A DNA stretch of 58,247 bases from Ectothiorhodospiraceae bacterium (GTDB taxonomy: Bacteria > Pseudomonadota > Gammaproteobacteria > Nitrococcales > Aquisalimonadaceae), in the NCBI GenBank assembly GCA_020831885.1, contig JAFIFU010000018.1, positions 1-58,247 of the forward strand. The letters run 5' to 3'. A program made the position numbers and the translations under genes. Of the stretch, positions 2,093-12,672 are shown piece after piece (the stretch's first letter is position 1; every line of letters begins with the position of its first letter). Under the pieces are notes generated by a model, which was not told the origin of the DNA, did not search any database, and worked only from the letters and a program-made list of their open reading frames with translations.

Positions 2093-4744
2093 TCATGCCG
2101 TCCTGCGGGCGGTGGCGGCGATCAGTCGCCGGATCTCCGGGACACAGCTACCGCAGTTGCCACCCGCCTGGCAGACCCTGCTTACTGCCTCCGGCGTGAT
2201 GGCGCCGCCGGAAATCGCCTGCAGTATGGTGTTCTCGCCAACCCCGTAGCAGGAACAAACCGGGCGTCCGGCGTCCGCTTCCCCGGACGGGGGGTGCCCG
2301 GAAAGCAGGGCCAGGCGCTCCCGCCCGTCCAGCGCCCGCTTATCGAACAACCCACCGAGCCAGGAGCGTTCGGGCAGCGTCTCCCGTCGCCCTATGAACA
2401 GGCAGCCCAGCAGCCGGCCATTGCGTATCCAGGCGGCCCGGTAACTGCCCCGGGCCGGGTCGGTGAACTCAAGCCACTCGCCGTGCCCGCGCAGCAACCT
2501 CTCCGCCAGCGCCGGCAGATCCCGCGGCGACCCGGCTCCCGCCAGCTCGTAGCGGACAAAACCCGCCCCCTGGGCCAGTGCCCACCAGTCGCAGTCCGGG
2601 TGTTGGGCCGGCGCCTGGCGTAGTAGCAGGAACCCGTACCACCGAGCCGCCAACGACTCCAGCACCACGGGGGTATGCTTGAATTCCGGCTCCCCGGACA
2701 GCGGATCGGTGGCTGGATTGACGACAGCATCCACCCGCGCCCCCACGGCGAACTGGTCGCTCCAGTGCATGGGCATGAAAACCTGCCCGCGGCGCAGGCC
2801 GTCGTCCAGCCCCACGCGGCCGATGGCCTCGCCCCAATGGCTGCGCACCCGGGCCAGCCCGCTGTCGGCTACGCCGAAGGCGGCGGCGTCGGCGGGATGC
2901 ACATGAATGCGGGGCTCGACCGTGTGCATTGACAGCCGGGCGGATCTGCCGGTCCGTGTCATGGTATGCCAGTGATCCCGCACGCGGCCGGTGTTGAGCA
3001 CCAGCGGGTATGCCTCACTGGTGCCGTAGGCGGGCGCCCGTGGTGCAACCGGCACGAAGCGCGCCCGGCGGCTGTCGGTGAAAAACCCGCCGTCAGTGAA
3101 CAGCCTGGGGGTGTCGCTGCCATCGGCGCGCACCGGCCACTGCCGGGGTGACAGCGCATGGTACGCGGCCCGGGTCAGGCCGGTGAGACCGGACAAATCC
3201 AGGTCGCGGCTGCCGTCGTTCTCGAAGGCGGTCAACCGGGCATGCTCATCGAATATCCGGTGCGGCCCCTCATAGGCAAAGGCCTCGCCGTAGCCCAGCC
3301 GTTCGGCGACACGGCACAGCGCCCACCAGTCCGGCTTCGCCTCGCCCGGTGCTGGCAGGAAGGGGCGCTGGCGGGAAATACGCCGCTCGGAGTTGGTCAC
3401 CGTGCCCGCCTTCTCGCCCCAGGCCAGCGCCGGCAACAAGACGTCCGCCACCGCGGTGGTGTCGGTCTGGCGCACCACATCGGAGACCGCCACCAGTTCG
3501 CACTGCCGTAACCCCTCCCGCACCGCATCCGCGTCCGGCAGGCTGACCACTGGATTGGTGCCCATGATCCACACCGCCTTGATCTCGCCGCGGCGAACGG
3601 CCCGGAACAGATCCACAGCCTTGTACCCGGGTTGGCGGACCAGATTCGGGGCATTCCAGAACCGGCGCACACGCTCCAGATCCACGGGGGTGTAGTCCAT
3701 GTGCGCGGCCAACTGATTGGCCAGGCCGCCCACTTCCCGGCCGCCCATGGCGTTGGGTTGGCCGGTCACGGAGAACGGGCCGGCGCCGGGCTTGCCGATG
3801 CGTCCGGTAATCAGATGGCAATTGATGACGGCATTGACCTTGTCCGTGCCGGCCGAGGACTGATTGACACCCTGGGAGTACAGGCTGACGGTACGCTCGG
3901 TCCGGGCGAACCAGCGGTAGAACCGTGCCACTTCACTCTCGGGCAGGTCGGTCACGGCGGCCACATCGGGCACGCTGCCCTGCTTGCGCGCCTGGGCGAC
4001 CGCGGCGCCGAAGCCTTCGGTGTGCTCGTCCAGAAACAGGTAGTCCACCGGACCCTCCCGGGACAGATGGGCGAGCAGGCCGTTCCACAACCACACATCG
4101 GTGCCGGGAGCGAGCGGCAGGTGCAGATCGGCGATCTCGCACGTCTCCGTGCGGCGCGGGTCGATGACCACGACGCGCATCTGCGGGTTGCGCTGTTTCG
4201 CCGCCTTGATGCGCTGGTACAGCACAGGGTGACACCAGGCCAGGTTGGAGCCGGCCAGCACCAGCAGGTCCGCCTGTTCCAGGTCCTCGTAGTTGCCGGG
4301 CACGGTATCCGCGCCGAACGCGCGCTTGTGGCCCGCCACGGATGAAGCCATGCACAACCGCGAGTTGGTGTCCACGTGGGCGCTACCGATGAAGCCCTTG
4401 AACAGCTTGTTGGAGACGTAGTAGTCCTCGGTGAGCATCTGGCCTGACCCGTAGAACGCCACCGCTCCGGGGCCATGCTTGGCGATGATCCGGCGGAAGC
4501 CGTCAGCCACGGCTTCCAGTGCCTGCTCCCAGCGCACCCGCCGGCCCGCCACTTCCGGGTACAGCAGCCGACCCGCCAGGTCCACGGTGTCGCCCAGGGC
4601 TAAGCCCTTGGAGCACAGCCGGCCGCGATTGGCGGGATGATCCGGGTCGCCTCGCACCTCCACTGTCCCATCCTGGTGGCGACGGGCCAGCACCCCGCAG
4701 CCCACACCGCAGTAAGGGCAGGTCGTTCGCGTCATTTCGGTCAT
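2093..4744 (-). CDS. nasA: Assimilatory nitrate reductase catalytic subunit with C-terminal BFD-type [2Fe-2S] domain
   Basis: Reduces nitrate to nitrite in the cytoplasm for nitrogen assimilation. The 883-residue protein starts with a 4Fe-4S domain (Cys9, Cys12, Cys16, Cys44), followed by a molybdopterin oxidoreductase core and an MGD-binding C-terminal barrel. The last 50-60 residues hold a BFD-like [2Fe-2S] motif (CSCYGVGE ... GGNCGSC), as in gammaproteobacterial NasA enzymes that take electrons from a small donor. The open frame extends 22 codons upstream, but MTEMTRTTCPYC is the natural N-terminus. It lies 69 bp after nirD and is the last gene of nirB-nirD-nasA, so nitrate and nitrite reduction are probably co-transcribed. 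The Mo-bisPGD requirement is family knowledge. Confidence 0.95.
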   Translation of the reverse strand: MTEMTRTTCPYCGVGCGVLARRHQDGTVEVRGDPDHPANRGRLCSKGLALGDTVDLAGRLLYPEVAGRRVRWEQALEAVADGFRRIIAKHGPGAVAFYGSGQMLTEDYYVSNKLFKGFIGSAHVDTNSRLCMASSVAGHKRAFGADTVPGNYEDLEQADLLVLAGSNLAWCHPVLYQRIKAAKQRNPQMRVVVIDPRRTETCEIADLHLPLAPGTDVWLWNGLLAHLSREGPVDYLFLDEHTEGFGAAVAQARKQGSVPDVAAVTDLPESEVARFYRWFARTERTVSLYSQGVNQSSAGTDKVNAVINCHLITGRIGKPGAGPFSVTGQPNAMGGREVGGLANQLAAHMDYTPVDLERVRRFWNAPNLVRQPGYKAVDLFRAVRRGEIKAVWIMGTNPVVSLPDADAVREGLRQCELVAVSDVVRQTDTTAVADVLLPALAWGEKAGTVTNSERRISRQRPFLPAPGEAKPDWWALCRVAERLGYGEAFAYEGPHRIFDEHARLTAFENDGSRDLDLSGLTGLTRAAYHALSPRQWPVRADGSDTPRLFTDGGFFTDSRRARFVPVAPRAPAYGTSEAYPLVLNTGRVRDHWHTMTRTGRSARLSMHTVEPRIHVHPADAAAFGVADSGLARVRSHWGEAIGRVGLDDGLRRGQVFMPMHWSDQFAVGARVDAVVNPATDPLSGEPEFKHTPVVLESLAARWYGFLLLRQAPAQHPDCDWWALAQGAGFVRYELAGAGSPRDLPALAERLLRGHGEWLEFTDPARGSYRAAWIRNGRLLGCLFIGRRETLPERSWLGGLFDKRALDGRERLALLSGHPPSGEADAGRPVCSCYGVGENTILQAISGGAITPEAVSRVCQAGGNCGSCVPEIRRLIAATARRTA

Positions 4745-4813
4745 GGCATCAGTGCTTCGATTCCTCGTGCATTGCCGCCGCGGCAATGGTGCGCCGCAAG
4801 CGCCTCTCACCCT

Positions 4814-5158
4814 TCAGTCCGCCAGCGGCTCCGTGTTCAGGTACAGTTGGCGGCCTTCCTGGCGAACCTGGAAACGGGGCACACAACCCACATCCGGCGC
4901 CTTGGCCGCTCCCTCGTCCAGGTGTATGTGCCAGGCGTGCAGCGGGCAGGTGACCAGACGGCCGTGGACCATACCCTCCGACAGCGGCCCGCCTTTGTGC
5001 GGACAGCGGTCCAGCAAGGCGAACACCTCGTCGGCACTGGTGCGGAACACGGCCACCGGGCCGTGGGCCGTTTCCACCACACGGGCACCCGGCGCCGGTA
5101 TGTCGTCCAGCGTGCCGATGGCGATCCAGGTGGGTTCACACTTGTTTGCGGCTTCCAT
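4814..5158 (-). CDS. nirD: Assimilatory nitrite reductase small subunit, Rieske type
   Basis: Small subunit of NADH-dependent nitrite reductase. The 114-residue protein is one Rieske domain with all four cluster ligands in place: Cys52-x-His54 (CPH) and Cys71-x2-His74 (CPLH). Some NirD homologues have lost these ligands, so this copy can be expected to carry a [2Fe-2S] cluster and pass electrons to the siroheme subunit. It lies 60 bp downstream of nirB and 69 bp upstream of nasA on the same strand. Confidence 0.93.
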   Translation of the reverse strand: MEAANKCEPTWIAIGTLDDIPAPGARVVETAHGPVAVFRTSADEVFALLDRCPHKGGPLSEGMVHGRLVTCPLHAWHIHLDEGAAKAPDVGCVPRFQVRQEGRQLYLNTEPLAD

Positions 5159-5218: not shown

Positions 5219-7654
5219 CTACACGGCCCGCTTCAGCGGCACGAACCTGGCCTTGTGATCACGGCTGTAGGTCTTCCAGGGCTCCTCCGCCTGGGCGCGC
5301 TGCTGCGACTTGAGGAAGCGCTCAGCCAGGGCCTTGCGGCCCGCCGCTTCCTCCACCACACGCTGCTTGACGTAGGACAGCCCCACACGCTCGATCCACG
5401 GGGCGGTACGCTCCAGATAGTGAGCCTCCTCCCGGTAGAGCTGCATGAAGGCGGCGCAGTATTCCTTCACCTCCTCCATGGTCTCGACCCGGCAGAGCAC
5501 GTCGGTGGCCCGCAGCTTGACGCCGCCGTTGCCGCCCACATGCAGTTCCCAGCCGGACTCGATGGCCACCACGCCGAAATCCTTGATGGTGGCCTCGGCA
5601 CAGTTGCGCGGGCAGCCGGAGACGGCCATCTTGAACTTGTGCGGCGTCCAGGCGCCCCAGCTCATTCTTTCCAACTCGATGCCGCAGGTGGTGGAATCCT
5701 GGGTGCCGAAACGACACCACTCGGAACCGACGCAGGTCTTCACCGTACGCAGGGCCTTGCCGTAGGCATGACCGGAGACGAAGCCGGCAGCGGACAGATC
5801 GCCCCAGACCCCCGGGAGCTGTTCCTTCTTCACGCCGAGCAGGTCGATACGCTGGCCGCCGGTGATCTTCACCGTGGGCACGTGGTACTTCTCCGCCACC
5901 TCGGCGATGGCGCGCAGTTCCGCCGGCGTCGTGACACCGCCCCAGATCCGCGGCACCACGGAGAAGGTACCGTCCTTCTGGATGTTGGCGTGCATGCGCT
6001 CGTTGACGAAGCGCGCCTGGCTGTCATCGGCAGCCTGGTCCGGCCAGGTGGAGATCAGGTAGTAATTCAGTGCCGGACGGCATTTGTCGCAGCCGTCCGG
6101 TGTTTTCCATTCCAGGTTGTCGAACACCTGTCGCAGGCTGGTGAGGTGGCCCTCCCGGATGGCGCGTCGCACCTGCTCGTGGCTGTGCTCGGTGCACGGG
6201 CACATGGGCTTGACCTTCGCCGTCTCGTAATCACCGCCCATGGTGGCCGCCAGCAGTTGTTCCACCAGACCGGTACAGGAGCCGCAGGAGGCGGCCGCCT
6301 TGGTATGCACCTTGACCTCGTCCAGCGTGAAGAGCTGGTGCTTGCCAATGGCCTCAACGATGGCGCCCTTGCAGACCCCGTTACAGTCGCAGATCTGGGC
6401 GTCATCCGGCAGATTCGCCACCTGGTCCACACCGCCGTGGCCGGCATCCCCCAGATTGGCCTGGCCGAACAGCAGCGAATCGCGGAAATCGGCCACCGAC
6501 GTGCCTTCCCGCAGCAGCCGGAAATACCAGCTGCCTTCGCCGGTATCACCGTACAGAACGGCGCCCACAATCCGGTCATTCCTGACGCAGAGCTTTTTGT
6601 AGACGCCGCCGGCGGGATCCTGGTAAACGATGGCGTCCACACCATCGGTTTCCTGGAAATCACCGGCGGAGAACAGATCGATGCCGGTGACCTTGAGCTT
6701 GGTGGAGGTCACCGAGCCCTCGTAGTACCGGAAGCCGTAGCCGGCCAGTTGGTTGGCGCAGACCTTGGCCTGCTCGAACAGGGGCGCCACCAGGCCGTAG
6801 CAGCGGCCACGATGCTGCACGCACTCGCCAACGGCATAGATACGGGGGTCGAACGTCTGCATGGTGTCGGACACCACCACACCCCGCTCGCAGTACAGGC
6901 CGGCCCGCTGCGCCAGTCCGGTATTGGGGCGAATACCCACCGCCATCACCACCAGATCGGCGGGCAACTCGCTGCCGTCCTTGAACCGCACTGCCTCAAC
7001 GCCCCGGGCACCGCCGACGATCTCATCGGTCTCCGCCTGCATGCGGAACCGCATGCCGCGCGCCTCCAGGGAGCGCTGCAGGTAGCTACCGGCGGTCTGG
7101 TCAAGCTGGCGCTCCATCAGCCAGGGCATCAGGTGAACGACTGTCACATCCATGCCTTGCTGCATCAGGCCGTAGGCGGCTTCCAGCCCCAACAGGCCGC
7201 CACCGATCACCACGGCCCGCTGGCGCTGGCGGCTGGCCTCCAGCATGGTGTTGACATCATGCACGTCCCGGTAGGTGACCACACCGGCCAACGCATGCCC
7301 GGGCACCGGGATGATGAACGGCTTGGAACCGGTTCCAAGCAGCAACCGGTCGTACCCCGCCACCGTGCCGTCGGCGGCGTATACCTGTCTGCCAACCCGG
7401 TCGATCTCGACCACGGACTTGCCCTTGTGGAAGGTGATGCCGTGCTCGGCGTACCAGCCCTCGCCGTTGATCATGATGTCGTCCAGGGTCTTCTCCCCGG
7501 CCAGCAGCGGGGACAGCATGATGCGGTTGTAGTTGCCGTAGGGTTCGGCGCCGAACACGGTGATGTCGTACTTGTGGGGAGCAATGGTCACCAGTTCTTC
7601 AATGACCTTCATACCCGCCATACCATTGCCCACCAGAACCAGCTTTTCCTTCAT
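5219..7654 (-). CDS. nirB: NADH-dependent assimilatory nitrite reductase large subunit
   Basis: Reduces nitrite to ammonium with six electrons from NADH in the cytoplasm. The 811-residue protein has, in order, an FAD/NAD pyridine-nucleotide oxidoreductase module (N-terminal LVLVGNGMAG dinucleotide motif), a BFD-like [2Fe-2S] region (CDCNGVC ... CGSC, then CPC ... CDKC), a nitrite/sulfite reductase ferredoxin-like domain, and the siroheme/4Fe-4S signature CVGSEWC with CPRNC. The open frame runs 142 codons further upstream, but that stretch crosses a terminator-like leader. The ATG at 7654 has a GGGAGG ribosome site 5 bases away and begins MKEKLVLVGNG, so it is the real start. First gene of nirB-nirD-nasA. 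Confidence 0.96.
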   Translation of the reverse strand: MKEKLVLVGNGMAGMKVIEELVTIAPHKYDITVFGAEPYGNYNRIMLSPLLAGEKTLDDIMINGEGWYAEHGITFHKGKSVVEIDRVGRQVYAADGTVAGYDRLLLGTGSKPFIIPVPGHALAGVVTYRDVHDVNTMLEASRQRQRAVVIGGGLLGLEAAYGLMQQGMDVTVVHLMPWLMERQLDQTAGSYLQRSLEARGMRFRMQAETDEIVGGARGVEAVRFKDGSELPADLVVMAVGIRPNTGLAQRAGLYCERGVVVSDTMQTFDPRIYAVGECVQHRGRCYGLVAPLFEQAKVCANQLAGYGFRYYEGSVTSTKLKVTGIDLFSAGDFQETDGVDAIVYQDPAGGVYKKLCVRNDRIVGAVLYGDTGEGSWYFRLLREGTSVADFRDSLLFGQANLGDAGHGGVDQVANLPDDAQICDCNGVCKGAIVEAIGKHQLFTLDEVKVHTKAAASCGSCTGLVEQLLAATMGGDYETAKVKPMCPCTEHSHEQVRRAIREGHLTSLRQVFDNLEWKTPDGCDKCRPALNYYLISTWPDQAADDSQARFVNERMHANIQKDGTFSVVPRIWGGVTTPAELRAIAEVAEKYHVPTVKITGGQRIDLLGVKKEQLPGVWGDLSAAGFVSGHAYGKALRTVKTCVGSEWCRFGTQDSTTCGIELERMSWGAWTPHKFKMAVSGCPRNCAEATIKDFGVVAIESGWELHVGGNGGVKLRATDVLCRVETMEEVKEYCAAFMQLYREEAHYLERTAPWIERVGLSYVKQRVVEEAAGRKALAERFLKSQQRAQAEEPWKTYSRDHKARFVPLKRAV

Positions 7655-7683
7655 GACGCCCTCCCAGCGAACACAGAAGTGAA

Positions 7684-7735
7684 AACGGCGTTCACACCGG
7701 ACCCTGCCCTGCATGGGACCGGAATGAACGCCGTT
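7684..7735 (-). terminator. Leader attenuator (terminator hairpin) upstream of nirB
   Basis: On the minus strand an 11-bp perfect stem (AACGGCGTTCA pairing with TGAACGCCGTT) encloses a 30-base loop, inside which CCGGTCCC and GGGTCCGG can extend the stem with one mismatch. It is followed by a short U4 tract. It sits 30 bases before the nirB ATG, so it would stop transcription before the gene unless antiterminated. The U tract is weaker than in a typical intrinsic terminator. Confidence 0.62.
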
Positions 7736-7763
7736 GTTCAGGGTGCGGCCTATCGGTGACCGC
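7725..7763 (-). promoter_or_regulatory. Candidate two-hairpin ANTAR (NasR) RNA target in the nirB leader
   Basis: In the nirB leader RNA, hairpin P1 (7763 to 7745) is GCGGUC-[ACCGAUA]-GGCCGC, a 6-bp stem with one GU pair. After 4 bases comes hairpin P2 (7740 to 7725), UGAAC-[AACGGC]-GUUCA, a 5-bp perfect stem with a six-base loop having A at position 1 and G at position 4. Tandem hairpins with A1/G4 hexaloops are the known target of ANTAR proteins. The loop plus 3' arm of P2 are the same bases as the 5' arm of the terminator stem, so the two folds exclude each other. P1 has a 7-base rather than 6-base loop. Recognition by the NasR encoded at 11330-12622 is inferred. Confidence 0.68.
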
Positions 7764-7828
7764 CGGTGCGTGATTGTGCTGCTGCGTCGCAACCACACCG
7801 CACCATGACCTGCCTGCCATGCGGAAGG

Positions 7829-7845
7829 TACAAAATATGTGCCAA
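7829..7845 (-). promoter_or_regulatory. Possible sigma-54 promoter for nirB
   Basis: Reading the minus strand, TTGGCAC is followed by ATATT and TTGT. The -24 block matches the sigma-54 consensus perfectly and the GG-to-(GC) spacing is 10, but the -12 dinucleotide is GT instead of GC. The predicted start would be near 7818, giving a leader of about 165 bases that includes both ANTAR hairpins and the attenuator. Confidence 0.42.
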
Positions 7846-7986
7846 GGACGAATGGCCGTGGTTTCCCCGGACGCGGCCACCCCGTAACCGGCCTGGTCCA
7901 GCGGGCGCGGGGGAACGGCACCGTCACCGCGGGCCGGCTCGCGCTTCCCCTTGCATGCCCCATTTCGGTGAAAAGCAGGTGGATGT

Positions 7987-8003
7987 TGCACCGCAATGAT
8001 GCA
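7987..8003. promoter_or_regulatory. NtrC-like enhancer site
   Basis: The dyad TGCACC-N5-GATGCA differs by one base from the NtrC consensus TGCACY-N5-GGTGCA. It lies about 100 bp upstream of the predicted nrtA start (about 8094) and about 175 bp from the predicted nirB start, both within range for an enhancer that loops to sigma-54 holoenzyme. NtrC control of this island is an inference from the site and from known nas systems. Confidence 0.6.
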
Positions 8004-8066
8004 GACTTCGCCCCCCCGGTGGCGCCTGACGGCCGGAAACCCGGAGCAGGCTTGATGATGATCAAG

Positions 8067-8083
8067 CTGGCACGACACATGCT
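8067..8083 (+). promoter_or_regulatory. Sigma-54 promoter for the nitrate transporter operon
   Basis: CTGGCACG-ACAC-ATGCT matches YTGGCACG-N4-TTGCW with one mismatch. The invariant GG (8069-8070) and GC (8081-8082) are 10 bases apart. The predicted start is near 8094, which gives a leader of about 114 bases, close to the short attenuated leader known for Klebsiella nasF. Confidence 0.72.
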
Positions 8084-8101: not shown

Positions 8102-8117
8102 GGGTCAACGATGGTCC
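8102..8117 (+). promoter_or_regulatory. Candidate ANTAR hexaloop hairpin in the nrtA leader
   Basis: GGGUC-[AACGAU]-GGUCC forms a 5-bp stem (two GU pairs) with a six-base loop having A1 and G4. The word GGTCA(A/C)CGAT is shared with P1 of the nirB leader. A competing 7-bp stem (8093-8099 with 8109-8115) excludes it. A second hairpin, GGCG-[ACGG]-CGCC at 8135-8146, overlaps the 5' arm of the downstream terminator, but its loop is four bases as folded by eye. The case here is weaker than in the nirB leader. Confidence 0.48.
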
Positions 8118-8141
8118 ACCGATCTCCAGATCACGGCGACG

Positions 8142-8191
8142 GCGCCTGCCCGGCTTCTGCAAACGCAGTGGCCCGGCAGGCGCTTTTTTTT
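8142..8191 (+). terminator. Intrinsic terminator (attenuator) in the nrtA leader
   Basis: GCGCCTGCC (8142-8150) pairs perfectly with GGCAGGCGC (8175-8183), followed immediately by eight T residues. An inner CTGC/GCAG stem (8157-8168) closes the loop. It ends 16 bases before the nrtA ATG and downstream of the predicted sigma-54 start, so it is an attenuator of this operon rather than the end of another gene. Readthrough presumably needs the NIT-ANTAR protein NasR. Confidence 0.85.
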
Positions 8192-8207: not shown

Positions 8208-9521
8208 ATGGGCAGCAAACGCAAGCACAGCCGGAGCAGGAGACAGCTCCTCCAGGGCCTGGGGGCCGCCGCCGGCGCCATGGCCATACCCGGCCTGATA
8301 TCCGGCGGCCTGACCCGCACTGCCCTGGCAGCGGGCAAGGGTCGGCCGGAGACACGTTCAGCCAGGCTCGGCTTCATCGCGCTCACCGACGCGGCACCCC
8401 TGTTTGTGGCCGCGGAAAAAGGGCTGTTCGACAAGCACGGGATGACGGATGTCCAGGTGCTGAAGCAGTCATCCTGGGGCACCACGCGGGACAACCTGGT
8501 CCTTGGCTCACCCCGGGGCGGTATTGATGGTGCGCATATCCTGACACCCATGCCTTATCTCATGACCGCCGGTGCCATGAGTGAGCAGGTGGACATGGCC
8601 ATTCTGGCGCGCCTGAATCTGGCGGGCCAATGCATCTCCGTGGGCAACGAATACCGGGAGCTGCAGGTGGGCCTGGACACCTCCGGGTTCGGCAAGGCGC
8701 TGGCCGGGAAACGCGCCGGAGGAGACGAGGTACGGGCGGCGATGACCTTCCCGGGCGGTACCCACGACCTATGGATCCGTTACTGGATGGCGGCCGGCGG
8801 AATCGACCCGGACCGGGATGTCGCCACCATCGTGGTGCCACCGGCGCAGATGGTCGCCAACATGCGGGTGGGCAGCATGGACACCTTTTGCGTCTGCGAG
8901 CCCTGGAACCAGCAATTGATCAACCAGAACATCGGCTACACGGCCAATACCACCGGCGAACTGTGGCACAACCATCCGGAGAAGGCATTCGCCATGCGCG
9001 CGGACTATGTGGAGGCCAACCCCAATGCAGCCAGGGCACTGACCATGGCGGTGATGGAGGCGCAGATGTACTGCGAGGACCCGCAGAACCGCGAGGAGGT
9101 TGCGCGCATCTGCTCACGCCGCCGGTGGATCCACGCCCCCTTTGAGGACATCGTCGACCGGATGAAGGGCCATTTCGACTATGGCACCGGGCGGGTGGTG
9201 GAAAACCATCCAGACCAGATGCGGTACTGGAAGGACCACGCCTCCTACCCGTTCAGGAGCCACGACCTGTGGTTCCTGGTGGAAAACCAGCGCTGGGGCC
9301 GCTTGCCCATGGAGCTGGACCGCCAGGCCCTGATCAACCGGGTGAACCGCGAAGACATCTGGCGGAAGGCCGCCACCGCCCTGGGCGTGGATCCGGAGGA
9401 CATCCCGGACTCCACCTCCCGCGGCGTGGAAACCTTCTTCGACGGCAAGGTGTTCGACCCGGAAAACCCCGACGCCTATCTGGACAGTCTCGCCCTCAAG
9501 CATGCGTTCCGTCGCGGTTGA
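8208..9521 (+). CDS. nrtA: Tat-exported nitrate ABC transporter substrate-binding protein (NrtA family)
   Basis: Periplasmic binding protein that delivers nitrate to the NrtB/NrtD-like membrane complex. The 437-residue protein begins with a twin-arginine signal (SRRQLLQG followed by an Ala/Gly-rich hydrophobic stretch, cleavage likely after ALA near residue 40). The mature part matches the NrtA/CmpA family (LGFIALTDAAPLFVAAEKGLF near the start). The frame is open 123 codons further upstream, but that part crosses the leader terminator. The ATG at 8208 has GAGGAAGG just before it. First gene of the transporter operon. Whether nitrite or cyanate is also bound cannot be told. Confidence 0.92.
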   Translation: MGSKRKHSRSRRQLLQGLGAAAGAMAIPGLISGGLTRTALAAGKGRPETRSARLGFIALTDAAPLFVAAEKGLFDKHGMTDVQVLKQSSWGTTRDNLVLGSPRGGIDGAHILTPMPYLMTAGAMSEQVDMAILARLNLAGQCISVGNEYRELQVGLDTSGFGKALAGKRAGGDEVRAAMTFPGGTHDLWIRYWMAAGGIDPDRDVATIVVPPAQMVANMRVGSMDTFCVCEPWNQQLINQNIGYTANTTGELWHNHPEKAFAMRADYVEANPNAARALTMAVMEAQMYCEDPQNREEVARICSRRRWIHAPFEDIVDRMKGHFDYGTGRVVENHPDQMRYWKDHASYPFRSHDLWFLVENQRWGRLPMELDRQALINRVNREDIWRKAATALGVDPEDIPDSTSRGVETFFDGKVFDPENPDAYLDSLALKHAFRRG

Positions 9522-9539: not shown

Positions 9540-10394
9540 ATGAGCATACCCGGCATGAACCAGACCGGTGCGGGCGAACCCGCGCCCACCGCCATGCACA
9601 AGCACTGGGAACGGTTACGCGGCGTGCTGCTGGATACCGTGCTGCCGCCGGTGGTGGTCGGGGGCCTGCTCCTGCTGCTATGGGAGCTGCTCAGTACACA
9701 ATCGGGCTCCACATTGCCGCCGCCCTCCCGGGTTGTCGCTGACACCCGGGAACTGATCGTCCACCCCTTCTACAACCATGGCGGGAACGACGTGGGCATG
9801 GGCTGGCAGATTCTGGCCAGCCTGGAACGGGTGGCCTACGGCTACCTGCTGGCTGTCATCGCGGGAATCAGCCTGGGCGTGCTGGTGGGCAAGTCCACCT
9901 GGGCCATGCGCGGGCTGGATCCGATTTTCCAGGTCCTGCGCACCGTGCCACCACTGGCCTGGCTGCCGATCTCACTGGCCGCGTTCCAGGCCAGTAATCC
10001 GTCCGCCATCTTCGTGATCTTCATCACTGCCATCTGGCCCATCATCATCAACACCTCGGTGGGGGTGCGGAATATCCCGGAGGACTACCAGAATGTGGCC
10101 CGGGTGCTGCGGCTCAACGGCTGGGAGAACTTCACCAGAATCATGCTGCCTGCCGCCGCCCCCTACGTGTTCTCCGGCCTGCGCATCGGTATCGGATTGT
10201 CCTGGCTGGCCATCGTGGCAGCGGAGATGTTGATCGGCGGCATCGGCATCGGTTTCTTCATCTGGGACGCCTGGAATGCGTCCATGATCAGCGACATCGT
10301 TCTGGCCCTGATCTACGTGGGTATCGTCGGCTTCCTGCTGGACCGGCTCGTGGCCCTGCTGGGCAGACTCGTCACCCGCGGCACCGCTGTCTAA
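9540..10394 (+). CDS. nrtB: Nitrate ABC transporter permease
   Basis: Inner-membrane channel subunit. The 284-residue protein has an N-terminal hydrophobic helix (residues about 29-50), further membrane segments, and the cytoplasmic loop EDYQNVARVLRLNGWENFTR, which contains the ABC-permease coupling (EAA-type) element. An AAGGAG ribosome site precedes the ATG. It lies 18 bp after nrtA and 10 bp before the ATPase gene. Assignment to nitrate rests mainly on the neighbours, since the taurine and nitrate permeases of this superfamily look alike. Confidence 0.9.
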   Translation: MSIPGMNQTGAGEPAPTAMHKHWERLRGVLLDTVLPPVVVGGLLLLLWELLSTQSGSTLPPPSRVVADTRELIVHPFYNHGGNDVGMGWQILASLERVAYGYLLAVIAGISLGVLVGKSTWAMRGLDPIFQVLRTVPPLAWLPISLAAFQASNPSAIFVIFITAIWPIIINTSVGVRNIPEDYQNVARVLRLNGWENFTRIMLPAAAPYVFSGLRIGIGLSWLAIVAAEMLIGGIGIGFFIWDAWNASMISDIVLALIYVGIVGFLLDRLVALLGRLVTRGTAV

Positions 10395-10404
10395 GGAGCT
10401 TGTC

Positions 10405-11256
10405 ATGACTGCACGCTATCTGATCATCGAAAACATTCACAAGACATTCACCCAGGGGCAGACGTCCACACCCGTACTGGAGGATGTGAGTCTGCAGGTG
10501 GAGCGAGGGGAATACATATCCATCATCGGCCACTCGGGCTGCGGAAAATCGACCGTACTGAACATCGTGGCCGGTCTGATCCCCGCCAGCAGCGGTCATG
10601 TGATCCTGGCCGGCAAGGAAGTGAACAGCCCGGGGCCGGATCGGAGCCTGGTATTCCAGAACCACTCACTGCTGCCCTGGCTGACCGTGTACGAGAACGT
10701 GGCCCTGGCGGTAAACAAGGTCTGCCGGCATATGAACAAGGCCCGGCGCCATGAATGGATACTGCACAACCTGGAAATGGTGGGCATGTCCCATGCGCTC
10801 CACCAACGCCCGGCGGAGATCTCCGGCGGCATGAAGCAGCGTGTGGGAATCGCCCGCGCCCTGGCCATGGAACCCAAACTGCTCTTGCTGGACGAGCCCT
10901 TCGGCGCACTGGATGCGCTGACCCGGGCCCATCTGCAGGACGAGGTCATGCGTATCCAGGCGGAGCTGAACAATACCGTGCTGATGATCACCCATGACGT
11001 GGACGAGGCCGTTCTGCTTTCGGACCGCATCGTGATGATGACCAATGGCCCACGGGCCACCATCGGCACAGTGCTGGACGTGGATCTGCCCCGGCCGCGC
11101 AACCGGATCCAGCTGGCGAGTGATCCGCGCTACAACCACTACCGCCGCGAGATCCTGGCTTTCCTGCACCAGCGTCAGCGCAAGGTGGAACCGCTACACG
11201 CCTCCAGCCCCCCGGGCGAGCGCGCGGCGGATTCCAGGGCGGCCCGGAGCGCATGA
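10405..11256 (+). CDS. nrtD: Nitrate ABC transporter ATP-binding protein
   Basis: Cytoplasmic ATPase that drives the nitrate importer. The 283-residue protein has Walker A GHSGCGKST, the signature ISGGMKQRVG and Walker B LLLLDEPFGALD, followed by ITHDVDEAV (switch His). An AAGGAG site lies 8 bases before the ATG. There is no NrtC-like fusion (ATPase joined to a binding domain), so one ATPase probably serves as a homodimer. The C-terminal tail of about 25 residues is low complexity. Confidence 0.92.
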   Translation: MTARYLIIENIHKTFTQGQTSTPVLEDVSLQVERGEYISIIGHSGCGKSTVLNIVAGLIPASSGHVILAGKEVNSPGPDRSLVFQNHSLLPWLTVYENVALAVNKVCRHMNKARRHEWILHNLEMVGMSHALHQRPAEISGGMKQRVGIARALAMEPKLLLLDEPFGALDALTRAHLQDEVMRIQAELNNTVLMITHDVDEAVLLSDRIVMMTNGPRATIGTVLDVDLPRPRNRIQLASDPRYNHYRREILAFLHQRQRKVEPLHASSPPGERAADSRAARSA

Positions 11257-11329: not shown

Positions 11330-12622
11330 TCAGCCCCGCTCCCGGAAAATGTCCGACATGGCGATGGTGTCCCGGGCCACGTCCGCCAGTTTGCGGCTTT
11401 GCGCCATGGCCACCTCCCGCAGGAAGCGGTAGGCCTGATCCTCGTTTATCCGGCGGTGTCGCATGATCAGCCCCTTGGCCTTTTCGATCGCCTTGCGGTC
11501 GGCCAGGGCAGCGCGGGCCTGCTCCAGCTCTTCGGACATGGTCTGCAGGCGCGCGGACTGGCTACGGACCAGGTCGATCAGGGAGCGCCCCAACTGCGGG
11601 CTGGCACAACCCGTATCCACGGCTTCCCCTCCGGGCGCTGCGCCGCGATCAAAGAAGACCGCCAGCGCCCCGGTATCCGGCGGCGTTGCTGTCAGTGCGT
11701 CCAGGTGGTTCCGATGGGATTCCAGATCCCGCCGGGCCTCGGCGATCCTGCGTCGACACAATGCCATCAGGCCATGCTCCACGCGGTCCTCGATCTGGCG
11801 GAGGGCATCGATGCGTTCCGAGGTGACCCGGAACCAGACATCACTGAGCGCCCGATCCACCGCGCCTTTCATGGCTCCGCTGAAAGCGATACGGCGCAGC
11901 CGCTCCAGCTCCGCCGGGGCCTCGGCACCACGGGCGTTCCACCACTCCCCCAGCTGTGTCTGATCGGCGAAGTCGGCGAACACCTGAAAACAGCGTTCCT
12001 GGTGATCGATAAGATGCCGCAGGCGCTCCGACAGACTGTTGCTGAAGCCGCCCCGGGCGAAACCTCCGACCCCCACGGCCCGTTCCTGACCCGCCAGTTC
12101 CTTGCCCTGCATCAGGTGAAACAGCGCCACCAACGCCCGGGAGACATCCGGGTCGGCAGCGGCATCCGCTGCCTCGAACACCAGCGCCAGGAGGCTTTGC
12201 ACCAGCGCGCTGTAACCGTCGATCACCGCTTCCGGCTGCAACGAAAGCTCACGGACCCGCTCACGCACCGTGCACAGTTCCTCCAGCCCATGCAATGCGT
12301 AAGCAATCCGGCTCAGCAACCGGCTGTTGCCCGGCACGCCGGCCAGGTCCGAATCCACCTGGGCAAGCCGGTCGCGGAACGCCCCTTCCGCCTCCCGTGT
12401 GATCTGCACAAGTGCCGGAAGGCGATCCCGGCACCGCTCTCCCCCGGATGCCACATACAGATTCGAGATGCCCCGTTCCCGCTGCATGGCGTGGACCAGC
12501 TCGCTGACGGCAGTGACCACCTGCCCCATGCGCAGCAAGTGTTCCAGCCCCAGGATCTCGCACCGTTTTGATGCAAGCAGGTACGCGGCAGCCGCGCCGC
12601 GATTACGATACCCGTCGTCCAT
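11330..12622 (-). CDS. nasR: Nitrate-sensing transcription antiterminator (NIT domain + ANTAR domain)
   Basis: RNA-binding regulator that lets RNA polymerase read through leader terminators when nitrate or nitrite is bound. The 430-residue protein has an all-helical N-terminal NIT-type sensor (about residues 30-310, beginning near MQRERGISNLY, the usual start of the nitrate-sensing fold) and a C-terminal ANTAR domain (about 365-425, DRKAIEKAKGLIMRHRRINE, then YRFLREVAM). A GGAGGG ribosome site lies 8 bases before the ATG. It converges on the nrtABD genes. The two attenuated leaders upstream of nirB and nrtA are its likely targets. Klebsiella NasR is the functional model; regulation here is inferred. 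Confidence 0.92.
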   Translation of the reverse strand: MDDGYRNRGAAAAYLLASKRCEILGLEHLLRMGQVVTAVSELVHAMQRERGISNLYVASGGERCRDRLPALVQITREAEGAFRDRLAQVDSDLAGVPGNSRLLSRIAYALHGLEELCTVRERVRELSLQPEAVIDGYSALVQSLLALVFEAADAAADPDVSRALVALFHLMQGKELAGQERAVGVGGFARGGFSNSLSERLRHLIDHQERCFQVFADFADQTQLGEWWNARGAEAPAELERLRRIAFSGAMKGAVDRALSDVWFRVTSERIDALRQIEDRVEHGLMALCRRRIAEARRDLESHRNHLDALTATPPDTGALAVFFDRGAAPGGEAVDTGCASPQLGRSLIDLVRSQSARLQTMSEELEQARAALADRKAIEKAKGLIMRHRRINEDQAYRFLREVAMAQSRKLADVARDTIAMSDIFRERG

Positions 12623-12672
12623 GGTCGTGACCCTCCGTTTGCTCCGGTATACCGAAGCAAGATCAGGGCCAG

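Follow-up and report, generated by a model that had tools for sequence, protein, structure and literature searches.

How is the nitrite reductase operon of this Ectothiorhodospiraceae bacterium switched on, and by which protein, given that a pair of hairpins and a terminator precede nirB? We addressed this question in the window (the whole 58,247-nt stretch of DNA that was analysed), in 14 genomes of the family, and more widely in the class.

Genes and promoters of the nitrate assimilation cluster

The cluster comprises the following genes:

2093 to 4810, minus strand: assimilatory-type nitrate reductase (Pfam molybdopterin and BFD domains; start codon uncertain)
4814 to 5158, minus strand: nirD, nitrite reductase small subunit (TIGR02378, above cut-off)
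5219 to 7654, minus strand: nirB, nitrite reductase large subunit (TIGR02374, above cut-off)
8208 to 9521, plus strand: NrtA/NasF-type substrate-binding protein (PF13379, NMT1_2)
9540 to 10394, plus strand: nitrate ABC transporter permease (TIGR01183, above cut-off)
10405 to 11256, plus strand: nitrate ABC transporter ATPase (TIGR01184, above cut-off)
11330 to 12622, minus strand: nasR, NIT-ANTAR regulator (PF08376 and PF03861)

The nitrate reductase matches the NCBIfam NasC and NasA models below their cut-offs, no NCBIfam model matches the substrate-binding protein above its cut-off, and none matches the NasR of the window. NasR nonetheless combines NIT and ANTAR domains in one protein and resembles the Klebsiella oxytoca NasR structure 4akk (E 2.2e-45), and it is assigned to this type of regulator. 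Its gene lies about 3.7 kb from the nirB leader and is the NIT-ANTAR protein that the preliminary description had placed in the same island. A search of viral contigs for NirB returned no relative.

Four candidate regulatory sites were located:

7829 to 7844, minus strand: sigma54-like promoter of nirB, TGGCAC-N5-TTGTA, the sole match without mismatch in the 58-kb window
8068 to 8083, plus strand: sigma54-like promoter of the transporter operon, TGGCAC-N5-ATGCT, one mismatch
12656 to 12671, minus strand: sigma54-like site upstream of nasR, TGGCCC-N5-TTGCT, one mismatch
7987 to 8003, plus strand: possible, weak NtrC site TGCACCGCAATGATGCA between the two promoters, with one mismatch and one of three such matches in the window

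With at most one mismatch, the window holds four sigma54-like matches, and the transporter and nasR sites are two of the three with one mismatch. At two mismatches the window contains 43 matches, about as many as chance predicts (42.6), and the weight of these sites therefore lies in their position.

Structure of the nirB leader

The leader RNA is transcribed from the minus strand and consists of these elements:

7763 to 7745, minus strand: P1 hairpin of 6 bp, with GCGGUC (7763-7758), loop ACCGAUA (7757-7751) and GGCCGC (7750-7745)
7744 to 7741, minus strand: P1-P2 linker, ACCC, 4 nt
7740 to 7725, minus strand: P2 hairpin of 5 bp with a C:G closing pair, UGAAC (7740-7736), hexaloop AACGGC (7735-7730) and GUUCA (7729-7725)
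7735 to 7684, minus strand: intrinsic terminator, 5' arm AACGGCGUUCA (7735-7725) pairing with 3' arm UGAACGCCGUU (7694-7684)
7685 to 7682, minus strand: weak U-tract of the terminator, TTTTC

P2 and the terminator are alternative hairpins: the 11 bases of the terminator 5' arm are exactly the P2 loop plus the P2 3' arm. The lengths of P1, linker, P2 and the 11-bp terminator stem, and the 11-base overlap, had been given in the preliminary description, and we recovered all of them on the minus strand between 7763 and 7684.

Several features correspond to what is expected of ANTAR targets. The tandem hairpins have 6 and 5 bp, where at least 3 bp are expected. Adenine at position 1 and guanine at position 4 (A1/G4) occur in both loops in the window, and a C:G pair closes both, as described for NasR by SELEX (PMC7496416). 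P2 overlaps an intrinsic terminator by 11 shared bases, with a U-tract that is weak in this genome. The exception is loop size, as P2 has a hexaloop and the P1 loop has 7 nt. By the hexanucleotide-loop rule the leader is thus not a strict member of the class, because of its P1 loop; judged from its sequence, it appears to work like an ANTAR two-hairpin target with a variant P1. The earlier word "textbook" is too strong for a leader with a 7-nt P1 loop and a weak U-tract, whereas the proposed ANTAR target with a switch between P2 and terminator is supported.

The reading frame of nirB is open through the leader (7655-8080, minus strand; a 953-aa ORF). This looks like chance, because the leaders of relatives differ by indels.

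Folding and terminator strength

The predicted fold of the 165-nt leader consists of P1 and the terminator (z -3.47), and one of 200 shuffled sequences folds equally well or better. Computed apart, P1 and P2 together have an energy of -13.3 kcal/mol and the terminator alone one of -37.1 kcal/mol; thus the terminator is expected to win unless P2 is held during transcription.

Termination itself may be leaky, given the poor U-tract. The stem is followed by TTTTC in the window and by 8-9 T in all seven family relatives, and the terminator score (with hairpin lengths counted by hand) is about 12 in the window compared with 53-72 in those relatives. It could be, then, that attenuation by this leader is weak or in decay here, with the sigma54/NtrC promoter mainly setting expression and termination so leaky that NasR makes little difference. 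The U-tract TTTTCACTTCTGTG, compared with the T runs of the relatives, is what speaks for this. Against it, the long stem pairs perfectly across 11-12 bp, and both hairpins and their A1/G4 loops are intact; we regard a weak or decaying attenuator as fairly unlikely.

A second leader before the divergent transporter operon

The transporter operon, on the opposite strand, is preceded by a leader that formed no part of the earlier finding:

8102 to 8117, plus strand: P1, GGGUC[AACGAU]GGUCC
8118 to 8134, plus strand: linker of 17 nt, containing a GAUC-UCCA-GAUC hairpin
8135 to 8146, plus strand: P2, GGC[GACGGC]GCC, with G at loop position 1
8141 to 8191, plus strand: terminator, stem 8141-8184 and a T8 run at 8184-8191

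Here the P1 hexaloop AACGAU has A1 and G4, and the P2 hexaloop GACGGC departs from the A1/G4 rule by its G1. The terminator overlaps P2 and stands before a nitrogen gene, whose start codon is at 8208. The contrast with Klebsiella drawn in the preliminary description, in which the transporter stood apart from the leader, is therefore not supported, as the divergent transporter operon has a leader of its own.

Conservation in the family

Orthologs of nirB were identified in eight of the 14 family genomes (full-length identity 82-100%; in G013 the gene is split into two pieces on two contigs, with 85 and 90% identity). The other six lack a nirB ortholog, their best matches being partial and of 28-34% identity. 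A search with a P2 15-mer places the leader before nirB in all eight genomes having the gene, an outcome on which the preliminary description had let its reading depend. The 15-mer occurs in nine of the 14 genomes; the copy in G010 is inside a coding region, and in G003 a further copy precedes the transporter. Full-length NasR is encoded in exactly the eight genomes that have nirB and the leader, and the six without nirB have neither leader nor full NasR. Among these six, the match to NasR is limited to 77 N-terminal residues in G010 and to the ANTAR part in G002, G007 and G011, and G008 and G012 show none. This distribution supports NasR, the protein named beforehand, as the likely regulator.

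The P1 loop varies. It has 7 nt in five of the eight leaders (ACCGAUA, ACCGGUC, AUUGAUC, AUCGACG, ACCGAUC; in G013 only if an A.G mismatch is allowed in the stem), 6 nt in one (AAUGGC) and 5 nt in two (AUGGC, AUGAC). The P2 loop is AACGGC in six and AAAGGC in two. A1, G4 and the closing pair of P2 are kept in all eight, and A1/G4 of P1 in seven, the exception being G004. In isolated folds, P1 forms as drawn in seven of the eight (not G013) and P2 likewise in seven (not G004).

When the seven nirB leaders other than that of G004 were aligned with one G003 transporter leader, the structure being drawn from the same sequences, 94.3% of P1/P2 cells pair, five of 11 pairs change on both sides, and none of 500 shuffles is as high. 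The signal is weaker for the eight nirB leaders only, with G004 included (90.8% of cells and three pairs in which both partners changed, a level that 21 of 500 shuffles reach). All changes on both sides in the first alignment are in P1 (five of six P1 pairs); covariation does not test P2, because P2 is nearly invariant. For the eight nirB leaders, RNAalifold predicts P1 together with the alternative terminator, the 5' arm of which lies on P2. When nirB, transporter and enterobacterial leaders were aligned together, the hairpins did not line up correctly, and this alignment was set aside.

Upstream of the transporter in two family members (L113, about 11500-11850, and L117) there is a P1-like hairpin, CGCC[AATGGY]GGCG. 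We saw no P2 or terminator in these two transporter upstream regions.

Distribution beyond the family

A covariance model of the nirB P1-P2 region scores its own leader at 57.7 bits and has no other match within this genome below E 0.07, in a search that scored 150 of 2563 first-look candidates. The model is narrow, since it missed both the transporter leader and the leader on contig C1 described below. It matched 23 of 369 class genomes, the own genome included. Inspection by eye places a terminator over P2 in 16 of the other 22 matches; the remaining six look like coding-region chance. The genes behind the 16 likely leaders encode 12 NMT1_2 (NrtA-type) proteins, three pyridine nucleotide (FAD) oxidoreductases of the type found in the NirB N-terminus and one alginate-export-like porin. 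A 7-nt P1 loop occurs in one of them (L156).

NasR matches at 1e-25 are found in 12 genomes, and only two of these, the own genome included, have a model match. As NasR and model matches seldom coincide in class genomes, the motif by itself does not reveal which protein acts on it.

We also scanned 88 NasR-bearing loci, four duplicates having been removed beforehand; 24 have a match, at least two of which are coding artefacts. These counts are rough, because the results differ between the two scanners (L056, L058, L061 and L108, all Billgrantia leaders, were found by the first and not by the second) and each includes some coding artefacts. Transporter and nirB have separate leaders in the window and in L094, L098, L100 (Comamonas), L103 (Piscinibacter) and L116 (G003). 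In L103 the two operons are on opposite strands with nasR between them. Among the NasR loci L044-L112, mostly from Vreelandella/Halomonas, 51 of 69 lack a nirB, nitrate permease or ATPase match in the flanks examined (up to 10 kb, some shorter).

At a Methylonatrum locus (L041:11552-11475, minus strand), a second ANTAR-type leader with a terminator has no more than a short reading frame behind it, and the locus has no transporter gene. This second leader looks like a relic of a lost transporter operon.

P1-P2 linkers span 15-42 nt in the 14 long-linker leaders examined, and some contain a small extra hairpin. Thirteen of them (L056 was excluded as near-identical to L063) are structured relative to dinucleotide shuffles (Fisher p 0.0014, replacing a 12-linker mononucleotide version with p 0.0009) and not relative to neighbouring windows of equal length (p 0.46). 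Small hairpins of -5 to -17 kcal/mol were seen in the long linkers of L103, L184, L071, L085 and L104; by eye, the genes of L103 and L184 are transporter-type, those of L071 and L085 FAD genes, and that of L104 cobA-like.

Which ANTAR protein

The genome with the window encodes four ANTAR proteins, and one other than NasR could target the nirB leader, by itself or jointly with NasR; the NasT-like REC-ANTAR protein encoded on contig C1 is a candidate. Consistent with this, G291 alone among the genomes of the 16 likely leaders has a NasR match at 1e-25, the other 15 leaders coming from genomes that lack one, and NasT is reported to control nirBD in Pseudomonas (PMC12830290, PMC8092218). Orthologs of the NasT-like protein (at least 46% identity) were identified in G000, G001, G002, G003, G010, G011 and G013, that is, in only four of the eight leader genomes and in three of the six others. 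In G004, G005, G006 and G009, which have leader and NasR, there is no NasT-like ortholog (best matches are partial, at most 40%), whereas G002, G010 and G011 have the ortholog and no nirB leader. Thus, by ortholog distribution, the NasT-like protein does not track the nirB leader and NasR does. The NasT-like protein moreover adjoins a leader of its own. On this comparison of two of the four ANTAR proteins (the other two are encoded on contigs C87 and C122), we consider regulation by an ANTAR protein other than NasR quite unlikely.

The C1 region (L001:1807-1960, G000) encodes the NasT-like REC-ANTAR protein, followed by a sigma54-like site, an ANTAR-type leader and an NrtA-like gene whose product has a Cys-rich N-terminus. 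This leader has P1 CCC[AATGAC]GGG inside a longer stem, P2 GGC[AAGGGC]GTC and a terminator. Leaders of this type are visible in all four genomes inspected (G000, G001, G002 and G011).

Rarity of the arrangement

A scan for two A1/G4 hairpins with a terminator overlapping P2 gave two matches in the window, the nirB leader (79) and the transporter leader (68); the top score in 200 first-order resampled windows was 56. This score permits P1 loops of 5-7 nt and G1 in P2; because it was built after the motif had been seen, it shows how rare the arrangement is and does not serve as a blind test. In a simpler scan made before, the nirB leader scored 40.5 and all 12 resampled windows stayed below 30. 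Searching the window against Rfam 15 gave no match at the gathering score and, with lax settings, two far sub-threshold matches. An inverted repeat arising by chance, or a hairpin at an mRNA end that regulates nothing, is an extremely improbable alternative: GC-rich sequence presumably makes hairpins common, and shuffled leaders also fold well (mean -64.7 kcal/mol), but none of 200 resampled windows reaches the score, and conservation before nirB in all eight family genomes contradicts it.

Proposed mechanism and comparison with known systems

We conclude, with a probability of roughly 85%, that nirB, nirD and the nitrate reductase, the operon named as target in the preliminary description, are controlled by nitrate-dependent NasR antitermination; binding, nitrate dependence and readthrough are extrapolated from the literature on Klebsiella NasR and EutV. 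The transcript would start at the sigma54 (nitrogen-limitation) promoter, about 50 nt before P1. When nitrate is absent, the P2 loop and 3' arm would pair with the later 3' arm, and polymerase would tend to stop before nirB. When nitrate or nitrite is present, NasR dimers would bind the P1 and P2 loops as these emerge; P2 held by NasR would keep the terminator from forming, and polymerase would read into nirB, nirD and the nitrate reductase. NasR is expected to act also on the second leader, before the divergent nitrate ABC transporter operon.

A1/G4 loops with overlap of P2 and terminator are the published ANTAR mechanism (PMC3369936, PMC3369931), and NasR prefers C:G-closed loops with A1/G4 (PMC7496416). 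Readthrough of the nasF leader with NasR is 52% with nitrate and 5% without (PMC7496416). Targets predicted by Ramesh et al. include nitrite reductase and nitrate transporters (PMC3369931), and NasT is reported to control the nirBD leader in Pseudomonas (PMC12830290, PMC8092218). The overlap mechanism and an ANTAR leader on nirBD (Pseudomonas) are thus already in print. By title or abstract, with partial coverage of the literature, we found no report of a NasR nirB leader or of a heptaloop ANTAR target.

The cluster resembles nasF/NasR of K. oxytoca in its NIT-ANTAR regulator, its A1/G4 tandem hairpins, a second hairpin over the terminator, and its nitrate-assimilation genes (PMC3369931, PMC7496416, PMC3369936). 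It differs from the published description of nasF in that one leader serves one operon there, whereas here there are two divergent leaders and a 7-nt P1 loop before nirB. The single-leader layout was observed in one Erwinia and one Pantoea plasmid. With the Pseudomonas nirBD leader (NalA) and NasT it shares ANTAR antitermination on nirBD and a sigma54/NtrC promoter (PMC12830290, PMC8092218); NasT there is a REC-ANTAR protein held by NasS, in contrast to the one-component NIT-ANTAR protein here. The Enterococcus eut leaders likewise have a two-hairpin target in which P2 excludes the terminator, but EutV is a phosphorylated response regulator.

Natural EutV linkers have 5-12 nt, and linkers of 3 nt, of 14 nt or with 20 nt added fail (PMC3369931, PMC8934654). 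The 4-nt linker of the nirB leader falls between the failed length of 3 nt and the natural range, and the 17-nt linker of the transporter leader lies beyond that range. Long linkers as such are not new, because a survey of actinobacterial ANTAR targets accepts 2-25 nt (PMC8164766).

Implications

In summary, this ANTAR-type leader is real and conserved, new for the organism and of an ordinary kind. Its points of lasting value are the divergent leader pair and the deviations from the rules on loop size and linker length. We suggest, tentatively and as something rather doubtful, that the NasR of this family reads P1 loops of variable length (7 nt in five leaders, 5 nt in two, 6 nt in one) beside a P2 that is strictly a hexaloop, and works on leaders, the transporter leader included, with linkers beyond the EutV range. 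If true, the published loop-size and spacing rules would hold for EutV and not for ANTAR proteins generally. The 7-nt P1 loop, the 4-nt and 17-nt linkers and the G1 in P2 are natural variants for testing rules that rest mainly on EutV. With this cluster, NIT-ANTAR control would also extend to nitrate-assimilation genes that are split between divergent operons, each with its own leader, for which the family genomes provide a clean test of co-occurrence.
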